A stretch of DNA of 43,921 nt, taken from assembly GCA_944358545.1 (NCBI GenBank), contig CALVRJ010000007.1:1-43921 (forward strand). The letters run 5' to 3'. Below the pieces are notes generated by a model. That model searched no databases, was not told where the DNA came from, and saw only the letters and a program-made list of their open reading frames with translations. Shown here one piece after another: positions 7,983 through 31,868 of this stretch. This DNA comes from an uncultured Bacilli bacterium (GTDB lineage Bacteria; Bacillota_I; Bacilli_A; RF39; UBA660). Each line of letters begins with the position of its first letter. The first letter of the stretch is position 1. The translations under genes and the position numbers were made by a program.

Positions 7983-8008
7983 AAAATCTAGTCCTTTAAC
8001 TAGATTTT
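7983..8008. terminator. Bidirectional terminator, DAACS / BspA-like gene
   Basis: Perfect 10-bp arms AAAATCTAGT / ACTAGATTTT with a 6-nt loop lie between convergent genes. The stop codon of the BspA-like gene falls within the hairpin. Confidence 0.7.
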
Positions 8009-9624
8009 AAGGTTACATGGTCTGTACCGCAACTATAAAACATACCATCTTTTTTTGCATTATCGATGTTCCAATTTGGACCAACATAGATTGTCTTTAA
8101 ATTTGAATTACCACTAAATATTGAAAACATTTCATTAACATTGCTTGTATCAAAGCTGCTTAAATCTAATTCGGTTAAACTACTACAGCAGTTAAACATA
8201 TCACTCATATTTTTAACATCTGATGTGTCAAAATTCTTTATGTTTAATGCTTTTAAATTATTGCATCCCATAAACATAGCTCCCATGTCAGTTACATTTG
8301 AAGTATTAAAGTTTGTTAAATCTAAGGCGGTTAAACTAGTACAACCGTTAAACATGCGACTCATATTAGTTGTAGCGCTTCCAAAATTTTTAGAAAAAGT
8401 TATGTTTAACATATTTTTGCATCCATGGAACATCCACGACATTGTTTTTACTTTAGAAGTATTAAAATTTGTCAAATCAAGTTCAGTTAAACTTTCGCAT
8501 TGGTTAAACATCGTTCTCATATCGTTAACACTCGAGGTATCAAAGTTTTGTCCAAAATTAATATTTTTTAAACTTACATCACCACTAAACATTGCAGACA
8601 TATTTGTAACATTTGATGTGTTAAAACTGCTTAAATCTAATTCGGTTAAACTACTACAGCAGTTAAACATATCATGCATATTGGTAACATTTATAGTATT
8701 AAAATTATTTATATTCAGCTTATTCAGAGCTTCACAATAGAAAAACATAGCTTCCATATTGGTGACATTGCTTGTATCTAAATTGCTTAAATCGATTGTT
8801 TTTGTTTGTTTAAAACCGTAGAATAAATAACTTGAATTAGGATTAGCAACTACACCACCATCGCCACCAATATATAATTTATAGAATCCTGCATTTTCTG
8901 GGTCATTTACTATCCACGCCATGACACTTCCATTTTGTCTTTCTGATACATCCCAGCTTTCTACTGCATCTGATGGTACATTTTTATTATTCAAAACTTC
9001 AATTGATGTTATTTTTTCACGGTATTCATCACTATGGTAATCAGCTTGAGAATTACTGCTATAACTTCTCATTAAATTAGTTTCATTTGGTAACACTGTT
9101 CCTTCATCATTTGTTCCAGCTTGAACATAATTTAAAGTTATTTCTAAGTTACTTGTTAAATTACTTGGCTGAATTTGTACTTCTGAATTATATTCAACGT
9201 CTACTGTAAATGTTGTAGTTCCTTTAGATTTTAGAGTATCACCTTGTTCAATGCCATTAATTGTAAATATTATTGCTTCATTACTACTATCTGTTTTCTC
9301 TATTGTTTTTAGGACTGCATCAATACTTCCTCTATTTTCAACTGTTACGGTATACCTCATTTTATCACCTGGTGAATATAAGTTGGTTTTAAATGTTGCA
9401 GTTGTATCTGTATGACTTGGTTCTTCTTCATCTTCCGGGTTTCCATTTATTATTTGACTTTGAATATTAGTAATTAATACTTCCCACTCACTTGTGATAT
9501 TACTTGTTCCTTTAATATTAAGCTGCGTCCTAAAGGCTGCATAGCCAGCGGCCATTATTAATAATATACTACATAAGCCTAATATTATATAGTTTCTTTG
9601 TCTTGTGTTAAATCTGTTTCGCAT
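7996..9624 (-). CDS. BspA-family (DUF285) leucine-rich surface protein
   Basis: 542 aa. An N-terminal basic segment and hydrophobic helix (LLIMAAGYAAF) would anchor or export it. Residues about 75-165 form a beta-rich domain resembling the DUF11/adhesin type (PGDKMRYTVTVENRGS). From about 260 to 530 there are about nine copies of a 25-residue repeat of the form FNTSNVTNMxxMFxxCxSLTELDLSS, the BspA/DUF285 repeat found on adhesins of gut and oral bacteria. The C-terminus is short, with no LPXTG or other sorting signal. AGGAGTG precedes the start. It probably acts in attachment or interaction with host or neighbours (inference). Long exact DNA repeats inside it could recombine in frame. Confidence 0.85.
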   Translation of the reverse strand: MRNRFNTRQRNYIILGLCSILLIMAAGYAAFRTQLNIKGTSNITSEWEVLITNIQSQIINGNPEDEEEPSHTDTTATFKTNLYSPGDKMRYTVTVENRGSIDAVLKTIEKTDSSNEAIIFTINGIEQGDTLKSKGTTTFTVDVEYNSEVQIQPSNLTSNLEITLNYVQAGTNDEGTVLPNETNLMRSYSSNSQADYHSDEYREKITSIEVLNNKNVPSDAVESWDVSERQNGSVMAWIVNDPENAGFYKLYIGGDGGVVANPNSSYLFYGFKQTKTIDLSNLDTSNVTNMEAMFFYCEALNKLNINNFNTINVTNMHDMFNCCSSLTELDLSSFNTSNVTNMSAMFSGDVSLKNINFGQNFDTSSVNDMRTMFNQCESLTELDLTNFNTSKVKTMSWMFHGCKNMLNITFSKNFGSATTNMSRMFNGCTSLTALDLTNFNTSNVTDMGAMFMGCNNLKALNIKNFDTSDVKNMSDMFNCCSSLTELDLSSFDTSNVNEMFSIFSGNSNLKTIYVGPNWNIDNAKKDGMFYSCGTDHVTLKSS

Positions 9625-9683
9625 TTTTTCACTCCTATTCTACAATACCAATTTAACACACGTAAAATCAAATTACAATACTT

Positions 9684-9708
9684 TTACCGGACTTTTTAGT
9701 TACCGGAC
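9684..9708. promoter_or_regulatory. TTACCGGAC direct repeat upstream of XRE gene
   Basis: TTACCGGAC occurs twice, at 9684-9692 and 9700-9708, 16 bp apart start to start, in the gap between the BspA-like gene and the XRE gene. ACGTAAA also occurs twice nearby (about 9660 and 9715). GC-containing words like this stand out in such AT-rich DNA. They could be an operator for the adjacent regulator or the divergent gene. No experimental link is known. Confidence 0.35.
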
Positions 9709-9752
9709 ATTAAAAACGTAAAGTGGCACAATTATGCTAGAGGTGAAAATGC

Positions 9753-9998
9753 ATGGCAACTTTTAAAAGAGAGTTTAATTTTGATAAGAATATCAAAGAA
9801 ATTGTGTCAAACAATATTAGAAAATATCGAAAGGAAGCAGGGATTACACAGGAACAATTGGCTGTCGACATTGGGAAGTCATATGATTTTGTAAGAAGAC
9901 TTGAGTTTAAAAAAGGAGCAATTGGTTGTTCACTCGATACAATATATAAAATCTCTGTTGTTTTAGGACAACCTACTTCGAAATTTTTTGAGGATTAA
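9753..9998 (+). CDS. Small XRE-family HTH regulator
   Basis: 81 aa, almost entirely one helix-turn-helix of the Cro/CI (XRE) type: RKEAGITQEQLAVDIG is the first half and KSYDFVRRLEFKKG the recognition-helix region, with the usual pattern continuing to LGQPTSKFF. AGAGGTG precedes the ATG. It is probably a dimeric DNA-binding repressor. The ASCH gene follows after 39 bp and the DUF4143 gene lies further on, so it may control this accessory group. The direct repeats just upstream are candidate operators. Confidence 0.8.
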   Translation: MATFKREFNFDKNIKEIVSNNIRKYRKEAGITQEQLAVDIGKSYDFVRRLEFKKGAIGCSLDTIYKISVVLGQPTSKFFED

Positions 9999-10037
9999 TA
10001 TTCTTTTTTGTTATAATATATTTTAGAGGTGTTTAGA

Positions 10038-10427
10038 TTGAGAGTACTTAGTATAAAAGAACCTTATGCAAGCCTTCTTAAAAATAATATTAAACATATT
10101 GAAACAAGGAGCTGGAAGACAAATTACCGAGGTGAAATTTATATTCACGCAAGCATGAGAATAGATAATGATTATTTAAAAAAAGATGGATTAGATAAAT
10201 ATGTAAATAAAGATAATTTTAAATGTGGATATATTATCGCCAAAGCTAATTTGATAGACTGCATATATATGGATAATGATTTTTTAAAGAAAATTAAAAA
10301 GAATAAGTTAGAATATTTATGTGGCGATTACAGAATAGGAAGATATGCTTGGGTTTTAGATAATATTGAGCCTATCTTTCCTATTTTTGCTAAAGGACAT
10401 TTAGGTATTTGGAAGTATAATGAATAA
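10038..10427 (+). CDS. ASCH-domain protein
   Basis: 129 aa. The opening RVLSIKEPYASLL followed by KHIETRSWKTNYRGEIYIHAS is characteristic of the ASCH fold, a beta-barrel related to PUA that binds RNA or modified nucleosides. Some members hydrolyse N4-acetylcytidine, others are proposed coactivators. The protein ends with the typical KGHLGIWKY. A TTG start at 10038 is preferred, 7 nt after AGAGGTG, because it places the conserved R-V-L-S motif at the N-terminus; the GTG at 10029 lies inside the Shine-Dalgarno. It is likely cotranscribed with the XRE gene. Substrate not predictable. Confidence 0.75.
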   Translation: MRVLSIKEPYASLLKNNIKHIETRSWKTNYRGEIYIHASMRIDNDYLKKDGLDKYVNKDNFKCGYIIAKANLIDCIYMDNDFLKKIKKNKLEYLCGDYRIGRYAWVLDNIEPIFPIFAKGHLGIWKYNE

Positions 10428-10450
10428 TTTTCTCTAGATTATAAAATAAA

Positions 10451-10520
10451 TTTTTGTCCAAACCGTAAAATGTTTCTTGTCCAAAATGTAAAATAATTTT
10501 TGTCCAAAATGTAAAATAAA
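10451..10520 (+). repeat. Three 23-bp direct repeats (iteron-like) before DUF4143 gene
   Basis: Three tandem copies of TTTTTGTCCAAAATGTAAAA, with GTCC at 10456, 10479 and 10502, a regular 23-bp period or about two helical turns. The first copy differs at two bases (CC for AT). The array ends immediately before the -35 box of the DUF4143 ATPase gene. This geometry suits cooperative binding of a regulator upstream of or over the promoter. Three copies without unique spacers rule out a CRISPR array. Confidence 0.8.
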
Positions 10521-10522
10521 AG

Positions 10523-10551
10523 TTTACAAATTATAATAATTAGTATAAAAT
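10523..10551 (+). promoter_or_regulatory. Promoter of the DUF4143 ATPase gene
   Basis: TTTACA (10523-10528), a 17-bp spacer and TAAAAT (10546-10551). It lies directly downstream of the triple repeat. GCGAGGCGAT precedes the start codon at 10575. Confidence 0.55.
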
Positions 10552-10574: not shown

Positions 10575-11825
10575 ATGAAAAAATATTTAAAAAGAATTGC
10601 GGATTTAGAACTTGAAAATAAGCTTTCTTATATGGGAGCTGTACTAATTGAAGGGTGCAAATGGTGCGGTAAATCAACAACGGCAAAACTGCATGCGAAA
10701 AGTATTATTGAATTTCAAAATCCTGATAATCAAAAAGATTATGAATTTATAAAAAACACAAAACCTTCTTTGTTTTTAGAAGGTGGAAAGCCAAGACTTT
10801 TTGATGAATGGCAAATGTACCCTATTGTTTGGGATTCAATACGATGTGATTTAGATAACACCGGTTTAAAGGGACAATATATTTTGACTGGTTCAGCAAA
10901 GCCTAGTGAAGGAAGTACAATGCATACAGGTACTGGGAGATTTGCAAGAATTTTGATGAGACCTATGTCTTTATATGAATCGCTTGATTCTGATGGAAAG
11001 GTTTCTCTTCAAGATATTATAGATGGAAAAGATATTGCGGCTGTAAATAAGATGAGTTTAGAAGATATTGCAAGTGTGATTGTTCGTGGTGGATGGCCAG
11101 CTTCTTTAGATATTCCAAATGATAATAAATATAATGTGGCAAAAGATTATGTAGATAGTTTAATTAGAGAAGATGTAAATACAATAAACCGAATAGAAAG
11201 AAACCCATCTAAAATGGGAGCTGTACTTAGGAGTTTAGCTAGAAATGTTTCGACACCAGTTTCTAATACAACAATTATTGAAGATGTAAAAAACGAATTT
11301 TCTGACGAAATTTCAAGACCAACACTTGATGATTATATTAATACTCTAGAAAAGTTATTTGTAATTGAAAAAGTTAATGCGACTAATTTAAATATTAGGT
11401 CTAAGGTTCCACTTAGGACAAAGGCAAAATTAGAGTTTGTTGATCCTTCAATCGCAACTGCAGTTCTGGGTCTTACAAAGGAAGATTTGATACATGATTT
11501 AAATTATTTTGGGTTTTTGTTTGAAAATTTATGTATTAGAGATTTAAAAATATATTCTGAGTTATTAGATGGTGAAATTACTTATTACCGGGATAAAAAC
11601 GATTTTGAAGTAGATGCGATTTTAAGAGTGCAAAATGGAAAATGGGGTGCTATAGAAATAAAGCTCGGATCTGGTTACATCGAAGAGGCTGCACAAAATT
11701 TATTAAAGCTTAAAGAAAAAGCTATAAATAAGCCGTCATTTTTAATAGTGTTAAGTGGTAGCAATTATTCTTATCGGCGTGATGATGGTGTTTATGTTGT
11801 TTCTATTGGAAGTTTAAAAAATTAA
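10575..11825 (+). CDS. AAA ATPase with DUF4143 domain
   Basis: 416 aa. The N-terminal ATPase half has a Walker A at GCKWCGKST and a Walker B-like LFDEWQ, followed by the ILTGSAKP sensor-like motif typical of this family. The C-terminal DUF4143 domain resembles a PD-(D/E)xK nuclease fold: FEVDAIL and AIEIKLG supply the D...ExK pattern, about 20 residues apart. These proteins are widespread, patchily distributed and of unproven function; defence or toxin-antitoxin-like roles have been suggested. The gene has its own promoter behind a triple repeat and ends at a strong terminator, so it is a self-contained unit that may have been acquired horizontally (inference). Confidence 0.85.
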   Translation: MKKYLKRIADLELENKLSYMGAVLIEGCKWCGKSTTAKLHAKSIIEFQNPDNQKDYEFIKNTKPSLFLEGGKPRLFDEWQMYPIVWDSIRCDLDNTGLKGQYILTGSAKPSEGSTMHTGTGRFARILMRPMSLYESLDSDGKVSLQDIIDGKDIAAVNKMSLEDIASVIVRGGWPASLDIPNDNKYNVAKDYVDSLIREDVNTINRIERNPSKMGAVLRSLARNVSTPVSNTTIIEDVKNEFSDEISRPTLDDYINTLEKLFVIEKVNATNLNIRSKVPLRTKAKLEFVDPSIATAVLGLTKEDLIHDLNYFGFLFENLCIRDLKIYSELLDGEITYYRDKNDFEVDAILRVQNGKWGAIEIKLGSGYIEEAAQNLLKLKEKAINKPSFLIVLSGSNYSYRRDDGVYVVSIGSLKN

Positions 11826-25928: not shown

Positions 25929-27224
25929 CTAACACTGTCCGGTGGTTACAGATGATACTCCACTTCCATCAAAAATTGCGTTTATGTTTGCCTGAGTTGT
26001 TATCCAATTTGGTCCGACATATATTTTTTGAAGTTTTGGAGAAGCACCAAACATCCAATTCATACTTGTTACTTTTCTTGTGTTAAACGAACATAAATTT
26101 AATTCGGTTAAATTCTTACTATAAGCAAACATATGATACATTGTTGTTACGTTATTTGTATCAAAATTTTCTAATCCTTTTATTTCAGGTACATTACTAC
26201 ATGAAAACATATTGTTCATATCTGTTACTTTGGACGTATTAAAATTACTGACATCTAATTCTTTTAAATTACTAATTAAACACTCACCATTTTCATTACC
26301 ATACCACATACTGAACATAGCAGCCATATTTGTAACATTACTTGTGTCAAAATTACTTAAATCTAATTCTGTCAAACTTGTACAACAATCAAACATTTGC
26401 TCCATGTCTGTTACTTTACTTGTATTAAAATTACTAACATCTAATGTTTCTAAACCTTTGCAGCCAGTAAACATATGATACATTGTTGTTACGTTAGATG
26501 TATTAAAGTCACTAACATCTAATTCTTTTAACTCACTAAGCCCCGCAAACATACTTCTCATATTTTGAACATTGTCAGTAATAAAATTATTCCCAAATTT
26601 AATATGTTCAAGTTTGTTTTCAGCAAAATTATCTTGTATAGAATCCCACATACTAAATAAATCACTCATGTCAGTTACATTACTCGTATCTAAAGAACTT
26701 AAATCAATTGACTTTAAATTAGTGCAGCACCTAAACATCCAAGCCATATTAGTCGCATTACTTGTATCATAATTATTATCGAAATTTATTTCTTTAACTC
26801 CTCTAAAATTATAAAATACTTTGCTACTGTCTTCATTAGCTATTACTTTCCCTTTGGCTCCAATATACAAATCATATTTTGATGAATCACTTGAATTTGG
26901 TACTACCCAAGCTTTTACGTTTCCTTTTTCTTTATCTTCGGATACATTCCAGCTTTCTACCACATTTTCCGGTACATTATTGTTATTTAAAAATGTTATG
27001 CTCACTATATTCTGTTTATAAAAGTCAGAATGAAAATCGGTTTGACTATTTTCATCCCACTCTTGAATTACTCTAGTTCCTTCTAAAATATTTCCTTTAA
27101 CATGTAAACTAATATTTGTCGAAAAAGCTGCATATCCGGCTGTTATAATAAATAATAAACAAAATGCGGATAAAATTATTATTTTATTTAGTTTCTTTCT
27201 TCTATGTCTTCCTATTCTTCTCAT
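25929..27224 (-). CDS. BspA-family (DUF285) leucine-rich surface protein
   Basis: 431 aa. A basic N-terminus and hydrophobic segment ending in ITAGYAAFSTNISLHVKG closely resemble the start of the other BspA-like protein (AAGYAAFRTQLNIKG), implying a shared export/anchor module. Residues about 140-425 hold about nine DUF285 repeats such as FNTSNVTTMYHMFTGCKGLETLDVSN. It lacks the DUF11-like domain of the larger paralogue and any C-terminal sorting signal. The ATG at 27224 follows AGGTGAT; the ORF extends 9 codons upstream without support. Upstream lie an inverted repeat and a 12-C homopolymer, suggesting phase-variable expression (inference). Confidence 0.85.
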   Translation of the reverse strand: MRRIGRHRRKKLNKIIILSAFCLLFIITAGYAAFSTNISLHVKGNILEGTRVIQEWDENSQTDFHSDFYKQNIVSITFLNNNNVPENVVESWNVSEDKEKGNVKAWVVPNSSDSSKYDLYIGAKGKVIANEDSSKVFYNFRGVKEINFDNNYDTSNATNMAWMFRCCTNLKSIDLSSLDTSNVTDMSDLFSMWDSIQDNFAENKLEHIKFGNNFITDNVQNMRSMFAGLSELKELDVSDFNTSNVTTMYHMFTGCKGLETLDVSNFNTSKVTDMEQMFDCCTSLTELDLSNFDTSNVTNMAAMFSMWYGNENGECLISNLKELDVSNFNTSKVTDMNNMFSCSNVPEIKGLENFDTNNVTTMYHMFAYSKNLTELNLCSFNTRKVTSMNWMFGASPKLQKIYVGPNWITTQANINAIFDGSGVSSVTTGQC

Positions 27225-27244
27225 ATATAAATCACCTATTTTTA

Positions 27245-27263
27245 TGTACAATTTTATTGTACA
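27245..27263. promoter_or_regulatory. Inverted repeat TGTACAAT-N3-ATTGTACA
   Basis: Perfect 8-bp arms with a 3-nt spacer, 20 bp upstream of the BspA-like start and directly abutting the homopolymer. It could be an operator; alternatively the TACAAT within it could be the -10 of the BspA promoter, with TTGATT as -35 across the G tract (19-bp spacer). Confidence 0.5.
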
Positions 27264-31250: not shown

Positions 31251-31868
31251 TTAACGATGTCTACCTCTAGAAATATTGTTTTCATTATGATACGGATAAT
31301 CAAAAGGCATATCTGGGATATCATCTTGATAGGCACTTGTTAGAACTGGTTTTTCATCACCAAGTGGCATATCTGGAATATCATCTTGATAGGCACTTGT
31401 TAGAACTGGTTTTTCATCACCAAGTGGCATATCTGGAATATCATCTTGATAGGCACTTGTTGGAACTGGTTTTTCATCACCAAGTGGCTTATCATCTTGA
31501 TAGGCACTTGTTGGAACTGGTTTTTCATCACCAAGTGGCATATCTGGTAATTCGGGAATACTTTTACCATTTAAATCTAAAGCATTTTGATTTAAGAATT
31601 CTTCACAACGTTTTATATTTTCTTTTAAAGTATCTTTTTGAATATTATATTGTTCTCTATTTTCCCCTACTTCTATTACTTTAGGGTTCATTAAAGCTGT
31701 AGCTAAATTATAATAATTTTCGATATCGTTAGAGTTTAAAATTTTTGATGATAAATCGTAATATTTATTCCAATTAGGATAATCTATAAAATGCCTTTGT
31801 AAATTATAAAGAGCTTCATTTAATAATTTTTTAAATATTTCTAATTGAGTTTCATTTAAATTTTCCAT
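31251..31868 (-). CDS. Tandem-repeat acidic protein of unknown function
   Basis: 205 aa. The first 115 residues are helical and hydrophilic (YNLQRHFIDYPNWNKYYDL) with no recognised domain. The C-terminal half is almost four copies of a 20-residue unit, LGDEKPVLTSAYQDDIPDMP, one of them shortened by three residues. The protein ends in a basic RGRHR. There is no signal peptide. The repeat is nearly identical at DNA level and so is probably unstable in copy number. AAAGGAAT precedes the ATG. Function unknown. Confidence 0.65.
   Translation of the reverse strand: MENLNETQLEIFKKLLNEALYNLQRHFIDYPNWNKYYDLSSKILNSNDIENYYNLATALMNPKVIEVGENREQYNIQKDTLKENIKRCEEFLNQNALDLNGKSIPELPDMPLGDEKPVPTSAYQDDKPLGDEKPVPTSAYQDDIPDMPLGDEKPVLTSAYQDDIPDMPLGDEKPVLTSAYQDDIPDMPFDYPYHNENNISRGRHR
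31305..31556. repeat. 60-bp minisatellite inside the acidic repeat protein
   Basis: 31321-31380 and 31381-31440 are identical; the next unit (from 31441) differs by one base and is shortened to 51 bp; a fourth starts at 31492. Both unit lengths are multiples of three, so copy-number change keeps the reading frame. Confidence 0.9.

Follow-up and report, generated by a model that had tools for sequence, protein, structure and literature searches.

A 23-bp repeat array at the promoters of DUF4143 ATPase genes as a probable self-specific operator

In a 43,921-nucleotide stretch of DNA from an uncultured Bacilli bacterium of the RF39 lineage (GenBank assembly GCA_944358545.1, contig CALVRJ010000007.1; this whole stretch is hereafter called the window), three direct repeats of 23 bp stand directly upstream of a gene for an AAA_14-DUF4143 ATPase and abut its predicted promoter. 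Which protein reads these repeats, and what would its binding do to the gene beside them? A preliminary description of the locus had proposed a dedicated regulator, either the ATPase itself or a nearby XRE protein. Here, we analyzed the array in the window, its occurrence upstream of related genes, its register with the promoter and its covariation with the encoded proteins. Our results suggest, with a probability of about 0.78, that the DUF4143 protein encoded downstream binds the array as its cognate site (an operator and probable assembly platform) and would thereby regulate its own promoter. The repeats of the window appear to belong to a family-wide, self-specific type of operator array, for which DUF4143 autoregulation is the best reading.

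The array, its promoter and its spread among related genes

Copies of the 18-mer TTGTCCAAAATGTAAAAT were found at 10454-10471 (two mismatches), 10477-10494 and 10500-10517 (no mismatches), that is, in exact steps of 23 and 23 bp, and none of 200 dinucleotide shuffles of the 220 bp 5' of the gene reached the same level of three-copy signal. The arrangement originally described, three 23-bp repeats next to a -35/-10 promoter, is thus borne out. The repeats had also been called helical-phase, which is wrong: 23 bp correspond to about 2.2 helical turns of DNA, and therefore successive units are rotated and out of helical phase. Tandem Repeats Finder reported a period of 23 with 3.3 copies at 10442-10519 (score 105), the top score in the window for periods under 50. 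With up to three mismatches, the 18-mer matched four times in the window (0.45 expected) and 20 times genome-wide (11 for a reversed control pattern). At up to two mismatches, the whole genome (1.38 Mb, 66 contigs) contained only the three array copies, and hence the window array seems to serve one locus only. An Rfam scan of this region gave zero families at E<=0.1. The promoter pair TTTACA-17-TAAAAT is weak evidence on its own, since a scan of 2.4 kb found 22 such pairs compared with 13.5 expected. Its -10 element ends 23 bp before the ATG at 10575, and, counted from position 1 of unit 3, its -35 and -10 elements have offsets of 19 and 42, a common register in the family (see below).

A first look at 23 homologues, including the window gene, revealed a three-copy array 5' of nearly all of them, mostly with an individual spelling. 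We then counted arrays in a set of related genes, mostly from the class of the window organism, that had been retrieved by similarity to the window protein; 176 genes remained after removal of three partial loci (L111, L168 and L179) and four with duplicate upstream DNA (L178, L208, L245 and L268) from 183. Some of these genes contain two to six in-frame TGA codons, which were taken as a mycoplasma-type code. The best upstream period was 23 bp in 170 of the 176 genes. At P<=0.005 (200 shuffles per gene), an upstream array was detected in 161 genes, with a period of 23 in 160 and of 20 in one. The same threshold was reached in only 6 of 176 mid-gene controls (periods 24, 24, 26, 27, 18 and 15; none 23) and in 6 of 172 downstream controls (periods 23, 23, 19, 28, 22 and 27). 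The downstream flank of the DUF4143 gene at L171 showed a 23-bp periodicity (P=0 of 200). The preliminary description had regarded orthologues without a similar array as the observation that would speak against a conserved operator; with 160 of 176 related genes carrying a 23-bp array, the idea survives. It had also asked whether the motif precedes other DUF4143 genes, and here the 23-bp spacing and a common skeleton are kept, while the exact word TTGTCCAAAATGTAAAAT diverges and is not general. In the class as a whole, 97 of 395 genomes encode a match to the window protein at E<=1e-60.

Arrays were also present on mobile DNA. We examined 22 plasmid-borne relatives, hand-picked among the matches listed (30 of 201; 25 of 278 records), and 14 of them had an array at P<=0.005. 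The period was 23 in ten (Bacteroides ovatus, B. uniformis, two Collinsella aerofaciens, Prosthecochloris, Lentilactobacillus, Spartinivicinus, Rhizobium sp. B230/85, Sulfitobacter and Mycobacterium riyadhense) and 22 in four (Rhizobium gallicum, Agrobacterium tumefaciens pAt1, Pseudohalocynthiibacter and Novosphingobium); several alphaproteobacterial relatives thus use a 22-bp period. Weak arrays were seen in Actinomyces oris (period 23) and Ensifer (period 22), and the three-copy test was negative in the remaining six relatives (Wolbachia, three Thermus, Aliarcobacter and Emticicia); a wider scan gave a two-copy signal of 28 bp in Wolbachia (P=0.005). A period of 23 was found in all four fetched contigs of a phage collection, out of six matching records, and in all seven IMG/VR loci checked, out of eight found, two of the loci having identical upstream DNA. 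A single-protein search of viral contigs gave no DUF4143 relative, and a profile search gave eight. Searching viral contigs for the exact 18-mer proved unhelpful, with 41 single matches and zero arrays, many in coding-like contexts (CPKCK-like words, by eye). A dimer pattern of the repeat likewise retrieved only G000 and G374 among the 395 class genomes, the match in G374 being a coding coincidence; a stricter dimer pattern in 99 relatives retrieved only G000 and the sister genome G024.

For a finer comparison, 10 further genes were dropped by requiring a period of 23, P<=0.02 and an open reading frame (ORF) of at least 370 aa; the resulting set of 166 genes is biased towards arrays because array criteria were used for its selection. 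Circular registration of the 166 arrays by expectation-maximization (EM) scored 997, compared with 531-547 in eight within-unit shuffles, and this alignment also supplied the unit register of the window array. The units share a skeleton of [AC][AC]AA at bp 1-4, A at bp 12, T at bp 14 and AAAA at bp 15-18; bp 5-11 form the variable part and bp 19-23 are loosely AT-rich. As many as 80 different core words (bp 8-11) occur among the 166 genes. On the basis of the core, arrays have two copies in 5 genes, three in 92, four in 46, five in 20 and seven in 3. At L123, L141 and L165, at least four perfectly identical 23-bp copies follow one another, which suggests fast turnover or homogenization.

A good sigma70-like score was obtained for 155 of the 166 genes in a promoter search that started from the last unit. 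In 112 of these 155 genes, the first base of the -35 element falls at register 18-20 of 23, where about 20 genes would be expected under uniformity. The -10 element lies at +40 to +42 from the last unit in 71 genes or at +18 to +19 in 32, and these two narrow classes are better evidence for a promoter register than the -35 count. In the +18 to +19 class, the last unit lies between the -35 and -10 elements; a protein bound there should block RNA polymerase, and therefore autorepression is favoured. The +40 to +42 class is compatible with repression and activation alike.

Covariation between protein residues and repeat bases

If the DUF4143 protein reads the array, its residues may be expected to track the repeat bases. 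We calculated mutual information between protein columns and the 23 repeat positions in the 166 genes and listed the pairs after average product correction (APC). The top pair was K341-bp1, and the top 12 included P249-bp11, P249-bp10, R248-bp8, P249-bp9 and S247-bp11. Because relatives share both protein and repeat by descent, each repeat position was also evolved along the protein tree in 120 simulations per position. Under this phylogeny-aware null, R248-bp8 (Z 9.0) and P249 with bp9, bp10 and bp11 (Z 6.3, 8.9 and 9.9, respectively) were above every residue in every simulation of that position, as were K341-bp1 (Z 5.8) and L286-bp22 (Z 7.3). N342-bp22 and S247-bp11 (both Z 5.2) passed only the 95% line, and G333-bp4 (Z 4.1) fell under it.

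The base preferences are chemically sensible and of the kind usual for contacts in the major groove, where Arg or Lys pairs with G and Glu with C: Arg248 went with G at bp 8 in 21 of 24 cases, Glu248 with C at bp 8 in 27 of 41, Lys249 with G at bp 10 in 18 of 19 and Pro249 with A at bp 11 in 22 of 23. The relationship could be seen among both distant and close relatives. In pairs of proteins less than 42% identical that share residues 248-249 (114 pairs), the core match was 0.57. Across 127 variable pairs of adjacent residues the median was 0.28, and the second-highest value belonged to residues 247-248 (0.44). In pairs 60-97% identical, 3.33 of 4 core bases match if residues 248-249 are shared (72 pairs) and 1.96 if they differ (381 pairs). 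The residues 247-249 Ser-Arg-Pro (SRP) go with the core GTAA in the window protein and in seven of eight SRP proteins overall, and DTD goes with ACCG in all five DTD proteins, including the paralogue C12 of the window genome.

Individual switches were also observed. The window protein and its 67%-identical relative at L091 have K341 and CC, whereas the proteins of L180 and L182, which share 66-67% identity with that of the window, have E341 and TT with SRP/GTAA unchanged. The core differs between L108 and L228 (84% identical), which have SEP/CTTA and SKN/GTGC, respectively.

The DUF4143 protein, a proposed mechanism and its rivals

The window protein matches the candidate defence system PDC-S01 of PADLOC over its full length. 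Its only Pfam matches at E<=0.001 were DUF4143 (PF13635, 113.3 bits) and AAA_14 (PF13173, 44.1 bits), both above the cut-off; neither a Rep family nor PF01637, the family of SSO1545-type archaeal ATPases, was matched. Two alignments, of 72 and of 40 proteins, showed conservation of the Walker A motif and of a Walker B motif (DEWQ, residues 77-80). In an AlphaFold2 model, residue 248 opens helix 248-260 of a predicted winged-helix domain. The predicted topology of the C-terminal part is H309-330, E334-339, E345-351, E357-363, H366-382 and E389-394, with residue 341 between strands; a conserved acidic/lysine motif would thus sit on an alpha-beta3-alpha-beta core, a feature of the PD-(D/E)XK superfamily. 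Structure comparison with VIA-align gave middling scores: Fur-type DNA-binding domains for residues ~189-290 (Z 7.6, root-mean-square deviation 2.8 over 75-82 residues), Card1 (Z 7.6) and Can2 (7.3) for residues 270-416, and McrBC chain M (7.3) for residues 161-416. The best whole-model Foldseek match in the PDB was the archaeal AAA+ ATPase SSO1545 (2fna, E 1.6e-4), and PABY2304 (2qen) was matched at E 1e-3, both at 13-14% identity and low TM-scores of 0.24-0.29 from a medium-confidence model. A phmmer search of the PDB gave nothing related, only a single unrelated chain at E 0.39.

We propose that one DUF4143 protomer binds each 23-bp unit. Residues 247-249, where the recognition helix of the winged-helix domain begins, would read the variable core at bp 8-11, and loop 341-342 of the PD-(D/E)XK-like domain, with help from the wing (residues ~281-286), would read bp 22-23 and 1-2. 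As roughly one helical turn separates bp 8-11 from bp 23-1, a single protomer could touch both from one side. Three or more protomers may line up on the array and bring their AAA+ ATPase domains side by side. Since the register of the array to the -35 and -10 elements is fixed, occupancy of the array would control the protein's own promoter. The sign of regulation is most likely autorepression, which may hold down the level of an ATPase-nuclease that could be harmful, until the protein is released by a trigger (an ATP state or an invader). As lineages and paralogues spell their arrays differently, such regulators would be largely orthogonal. Physical binding, the role of ATP, nuclease activity and a role in defence are parts of this model that we infer from sequence comparison and predicted structure.

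Several observations weigh against this reading. The unit boundaries depend on the EM alignment of genes selected for arrays, and the -35 register count is partly array-dependent, because the search starts at the last unit and the repeats may hold -35-like words. The geometry by itself fits either sign of regulation, and the last unit often lies just 5' of the -35 element, a place that activators use too. In the APC list, which carries no phylogeny correction, K29-bp17 and G333-bp4 rank second and third, and of the top 40 pairs, 16 belong to the winged-helix part, which makes up 80 of 413 columns; the nuclease part has 15 and the AAA part 9. In the tree simulations, two residues with no obvious contact role were above all simulated values (D191-bp7, Z 5.7; I349-bp21, Z 6.9) and two more passed the 95% line only (K29-bp17, Z 5.4; S136-bp7, Z 5.0). 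K341-bp23 (Z 6.2) passes its 95% line (4.7) and stays below the largest simulated value (6.4), and K285-bp2 only reaches the line; these thresholds were set for each of the 23 positions and are uncorrected across positions. Among the 381 pairs differing at residues 248-249, 36 keep the whole core; for example, DND, DNG and DTD all go with ACCG. Confidence in the AlphaFold2 model is medium (pLDDT, the predicted local distance difference test, 74.5), and its AAA part is weak. Finally, 16 of the 176 genes fall below the 23-bp P<=0.005 mark (L121, L149, L155, L156, L158, L181, L182, L183, L189, L202, L214, L234, L240, L251, L269 and L271), most of them with two or three eroded copies by eye; the exceptions, among them the Wolbachia and Thermus genes, are L121 (an interrupted gene), L156 and L158, and in a later sample Aliarcobacter and Emticicia showed no such copies either.

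Among other explanations, the best surviving one is that the array is mainly the working site of the ATPase-nuclease (an assembly platform, a self tag, or a nicked or protected site), with its nearness to the promoter being secondary. We consider this unlikely. It would agree with the covariation of the predicted nuclease-like domain with the repeat (K341 and N342) and with the retention of E345, D347, E361 and K363 in that domain, and the identical copies at L123, L141 and L165 may be more than simple repression should need. However, a pure nuclease site would not need the fixed register between promoter and array.

It is improbable that the array is bound by a separate host regulator, be it the nearby XRE protein or some other factor. 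The XRE gene does lie 0.5 kb upstream in the window, and helix-turn-helix genes occur 5' of DUF4143 at four of the 22 plasmid loci (L146, L147, L157 and L296), which also counts against the autoregulation proposed here. Yet a foreign binder would not make the repeat bases track DUF4143 residues, and two loci speak against it. At L091 (JAUNFS010000011.1), an unrelated locus, three units of the same consensus stand directly 5' of the DUF4143 gene, preceded by ORFs that by eye resemble ribosomal protein genes, and neither XRE nor ASCH was found among the listed ORFs. In G024, whose corresponding region is syntenic with the window (DNA identity 77-92% in the main blocks) and retains both XRE and ASCH genes, the DUF4143 gene is gone and just two repeat units and the -35 element remain; the gene has apparently been lost from this locus in G024. 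On the basis of this remnant and the L091 array, the array appears to travel with DUF4143. Of the two regulators first suggested, the ATPase itself is therefore favoured by array spread, promoter register and residue-base covariation, and binding by the XRE protein is unlikely.

Slightly less probable still is that gene and array form a minimal mobile unit with the repeats as transposase-type end sites. The distribution is patchy (a match at E<=1e-60 in 19 of 99 relatives), the gene occurs on plasmids and phage-collection contigs, and it has been swapped for another gene in G024. On the other hand, the other end is as a rule without a matching array (6 of 172 downstream flanks, two of period 23), two units and the -35 element stayed in G024 after gene loss, and the promoter register would be left unexplained. 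An IS21-type end remnant was likewise rejected: no transposase family was found in eight window proteins scanned around the array, and promoter register and covariation do not fit. That the array is a chance or low-complexity repeat of an AT-rich genome has a negligible probability: the window does contain many short AT-rich repeats (Tandem Repeats Finder), but the shuffles, the mid-gene and downstream controls and the exact 23-bp period across phyla speak against it, and the 176-gene test refutes it.

Table 1. Features of the window and of the sister genome G024 (window coordinates unless a locus is given).
Feature	Position	Strand	Remarks
XRE/HTH_3 protein	9753..9998	+	Alternative regulator of the preliminary description; ~0.5 kb upstream
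ASCH-domain protein	10029..10427	+	5' of array; remains beside the two-copy array in G024
Repeat unit 1	10458..10480	+	CCAAACCGTAAAATGTTTCTTGT; family register, position 1 is the first C of CCAAA
Repeat unit 2	10481..10503	+	CCAAAATGTAAAATAATTTTTGT; variable core bp 8-11 is GTAA
Repeat unit 3	10504..10526	+	Final 4 bp shared with the -35 hexamer
Predicted sigma70-type promoter of DUF4143 gene	10523..10551	+	Consensus match: -35 TTTACA 10523-10528, 17-bp spacer, -10 TAAAAT 10546-10551
AAA_14-DUF4143 ATPase, 416 aa, PADLOC PDC-S01	10575..11825	+	PDLC04790 E 9.3e-60, residues 1-414; proposed array reader
Walker A GCKWCGKS, residues 27-34	10653..10676	+	Conserved in both alignments (72 and 40 proteins)
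Predicted winged-helix DNA-binding domain, ~residues 209-290	11199..11444	+	AlphaFold2 model; resembles Fur-family DNA-binding domains
Codons 247-249 (Ser-Arg-Pro)	11313..11321	+	Start of predicted recognition helix; covary with repeat bp 8-11
Codons 341-342 (Lys-Asn)	11595..11600	+	Loop of predicted PD-(D/E)XK-like domain; covary with bp 1, 22, 23
PD-(D/E)XK-like motif, residues 345-363	11607..11663	+	E345, D347, E361, K363 invariant in 40 proteins
573-aa gene in the place of DUF4143, G024	L059:6881-8602	opposite	Between ASCH and penicillin-binding protein genes; no Pfam match

Neighbouring genes, paralogues and significance

The array sits between the ASCH and DUF4143 genes, and 3' of the latter follow a PASTA-type penicillin-binding protein gene and then mraY-like and ftsW/spoVE-like genes. 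The gene that takes the place of DUF4143 in G024 contains an internal repeat by eye. The ASCH gene and its flank differ from G024 at only ~3 positions in 460 bp (by eye) while neighbouring blocks are ~77-89% identical, which suggests a recent exchange. At 9677-9712, 5' of the XRE gene, a TTACCGGAC-type word is doubled and is present as a single copy in G024 (a 16-bp difference); the doubled word is possibly an operator of the XRE protein. The DUF285 repeat protein at 7996-9624 and the ORF at 25929-27251 consist of related DNA, and both align to the G024 gene adjoining XRE. Elsewhere in the window, a 60-bp tandem repeat (4.2 copies, 90% match) lies at 31306-31547 within a minus-strand ORF.

The window genome contains six DUF4143 genes. 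Arrays of 23 bp are present at the window gene and C12, and one of 33 bp at C4; no direct array was found upstream of C14 and C5, and the 80 bp of upstream DNA available for C49 are too short for the array test. The three 33-bp copies at L012/L284 lie outside the main scan, which was limited to periods of up to 30 bp. A re-scan of 13 loci of other subfamilies (L014 and L279-L290; 15-45 bp, two and three copies), which tries more combinations than the main scan, found direct arrays at P<=0.005 in six (37 bp at L283; 33 bp at L284, L285 and L289; 34 bp at L286; 32 bp at L290) and none in the other seven. Direct arrays of 32-34 bp were thus present in five of the seven C4-type loci (L284-L290, found with the C4 protein). 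At L279 and L280, of an RQVGK-type subfamily, inverted repeats such as GTGTAAATTTAAA...TTTAAATTTACAC were seen by eye 5' of the gene and not a tandem array. A word similar to the window repeat, TGTCCAAAAAGTAAAAA, forms 21-bp tandem arrays 5' of two AraC-like paralogues (named by eye) in a Porphyromonas metagenome-assembled genome (L090:76-160 and L092:3532-3600); given the other spacing and the AraC-like genes, these were rejected as DUF4143 arrays. By spacing they resemble AraC-type sites, presumably a convergence.

Two known systems offer a comparison. Plasmid initiators of the RepA type bind iterons, tandem direct repeats of ~20 bp beside the reader's gene, and regulate themselves. The DUF4143 arrays are similar tandem direct repeats of about 20 bp adjoining the gene; they differ in that no Rep domain was found, that chromosomal loci are also involved, that the repeat is hypervariable and that the protein has a nuclease-like domain. 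The C proteins of restriction-modification systems are autoregulated controllers of defence systems. The DUF4143 protein would be like them in being defence-linked and controlling its own promoter, whereas in this case the reader would be the presumed effector, a protein that itself bears ATPase and nuclease-like domains.

PDC-S01 is an unvalidated single-gene phage-defence candidate. According to one survey, it ranks fourth in frequency among prokaryotic defence systems, with 29,494 bacterial and 9,986 archaeal occurrences, and most PDCs still await experimental validation (PMC12988326). Another study reports that, of the individual loci in rumen genomes, it occurs most often (PMC13356809). 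No cis element for PDC-S01 is mentioned in the passages covered of the former (PMC12988326), and neither such arrays nor a mechanism for PDC-S01 was found described in the open-access literature covered. The array, the promoter register and the recognition code are thus additions of the present study.

A more far-reaching and rather doubtful extension is that PDC-S01 proteins form a very large family of single-gene ATPase-nucleases that use an amino-acid-to-base code to recognize a private, fast-diverging tandem tag beside their own gene as a 'self' address for ring or filament assembly. A single cis array might then set specificity, expression and nuclease licensing, and differently spelled elements would ignore each other (self-addressed immunity or exclusion). 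The spacing of 23, 22 or ~33 bp, depending on the subfamily, hints at how the ATPases may pack on DNA, and the code could yield many orthogonal repressor-operator pairs. For each PDC-S01 protein, the array predicts a DNA ligand, an effect on the promoter and a specificity code, and therefore its function becomes testable by ordinary gel shifts and reporters. The array would thus offer a point of entry to a candidate phage-defence family that is very common.
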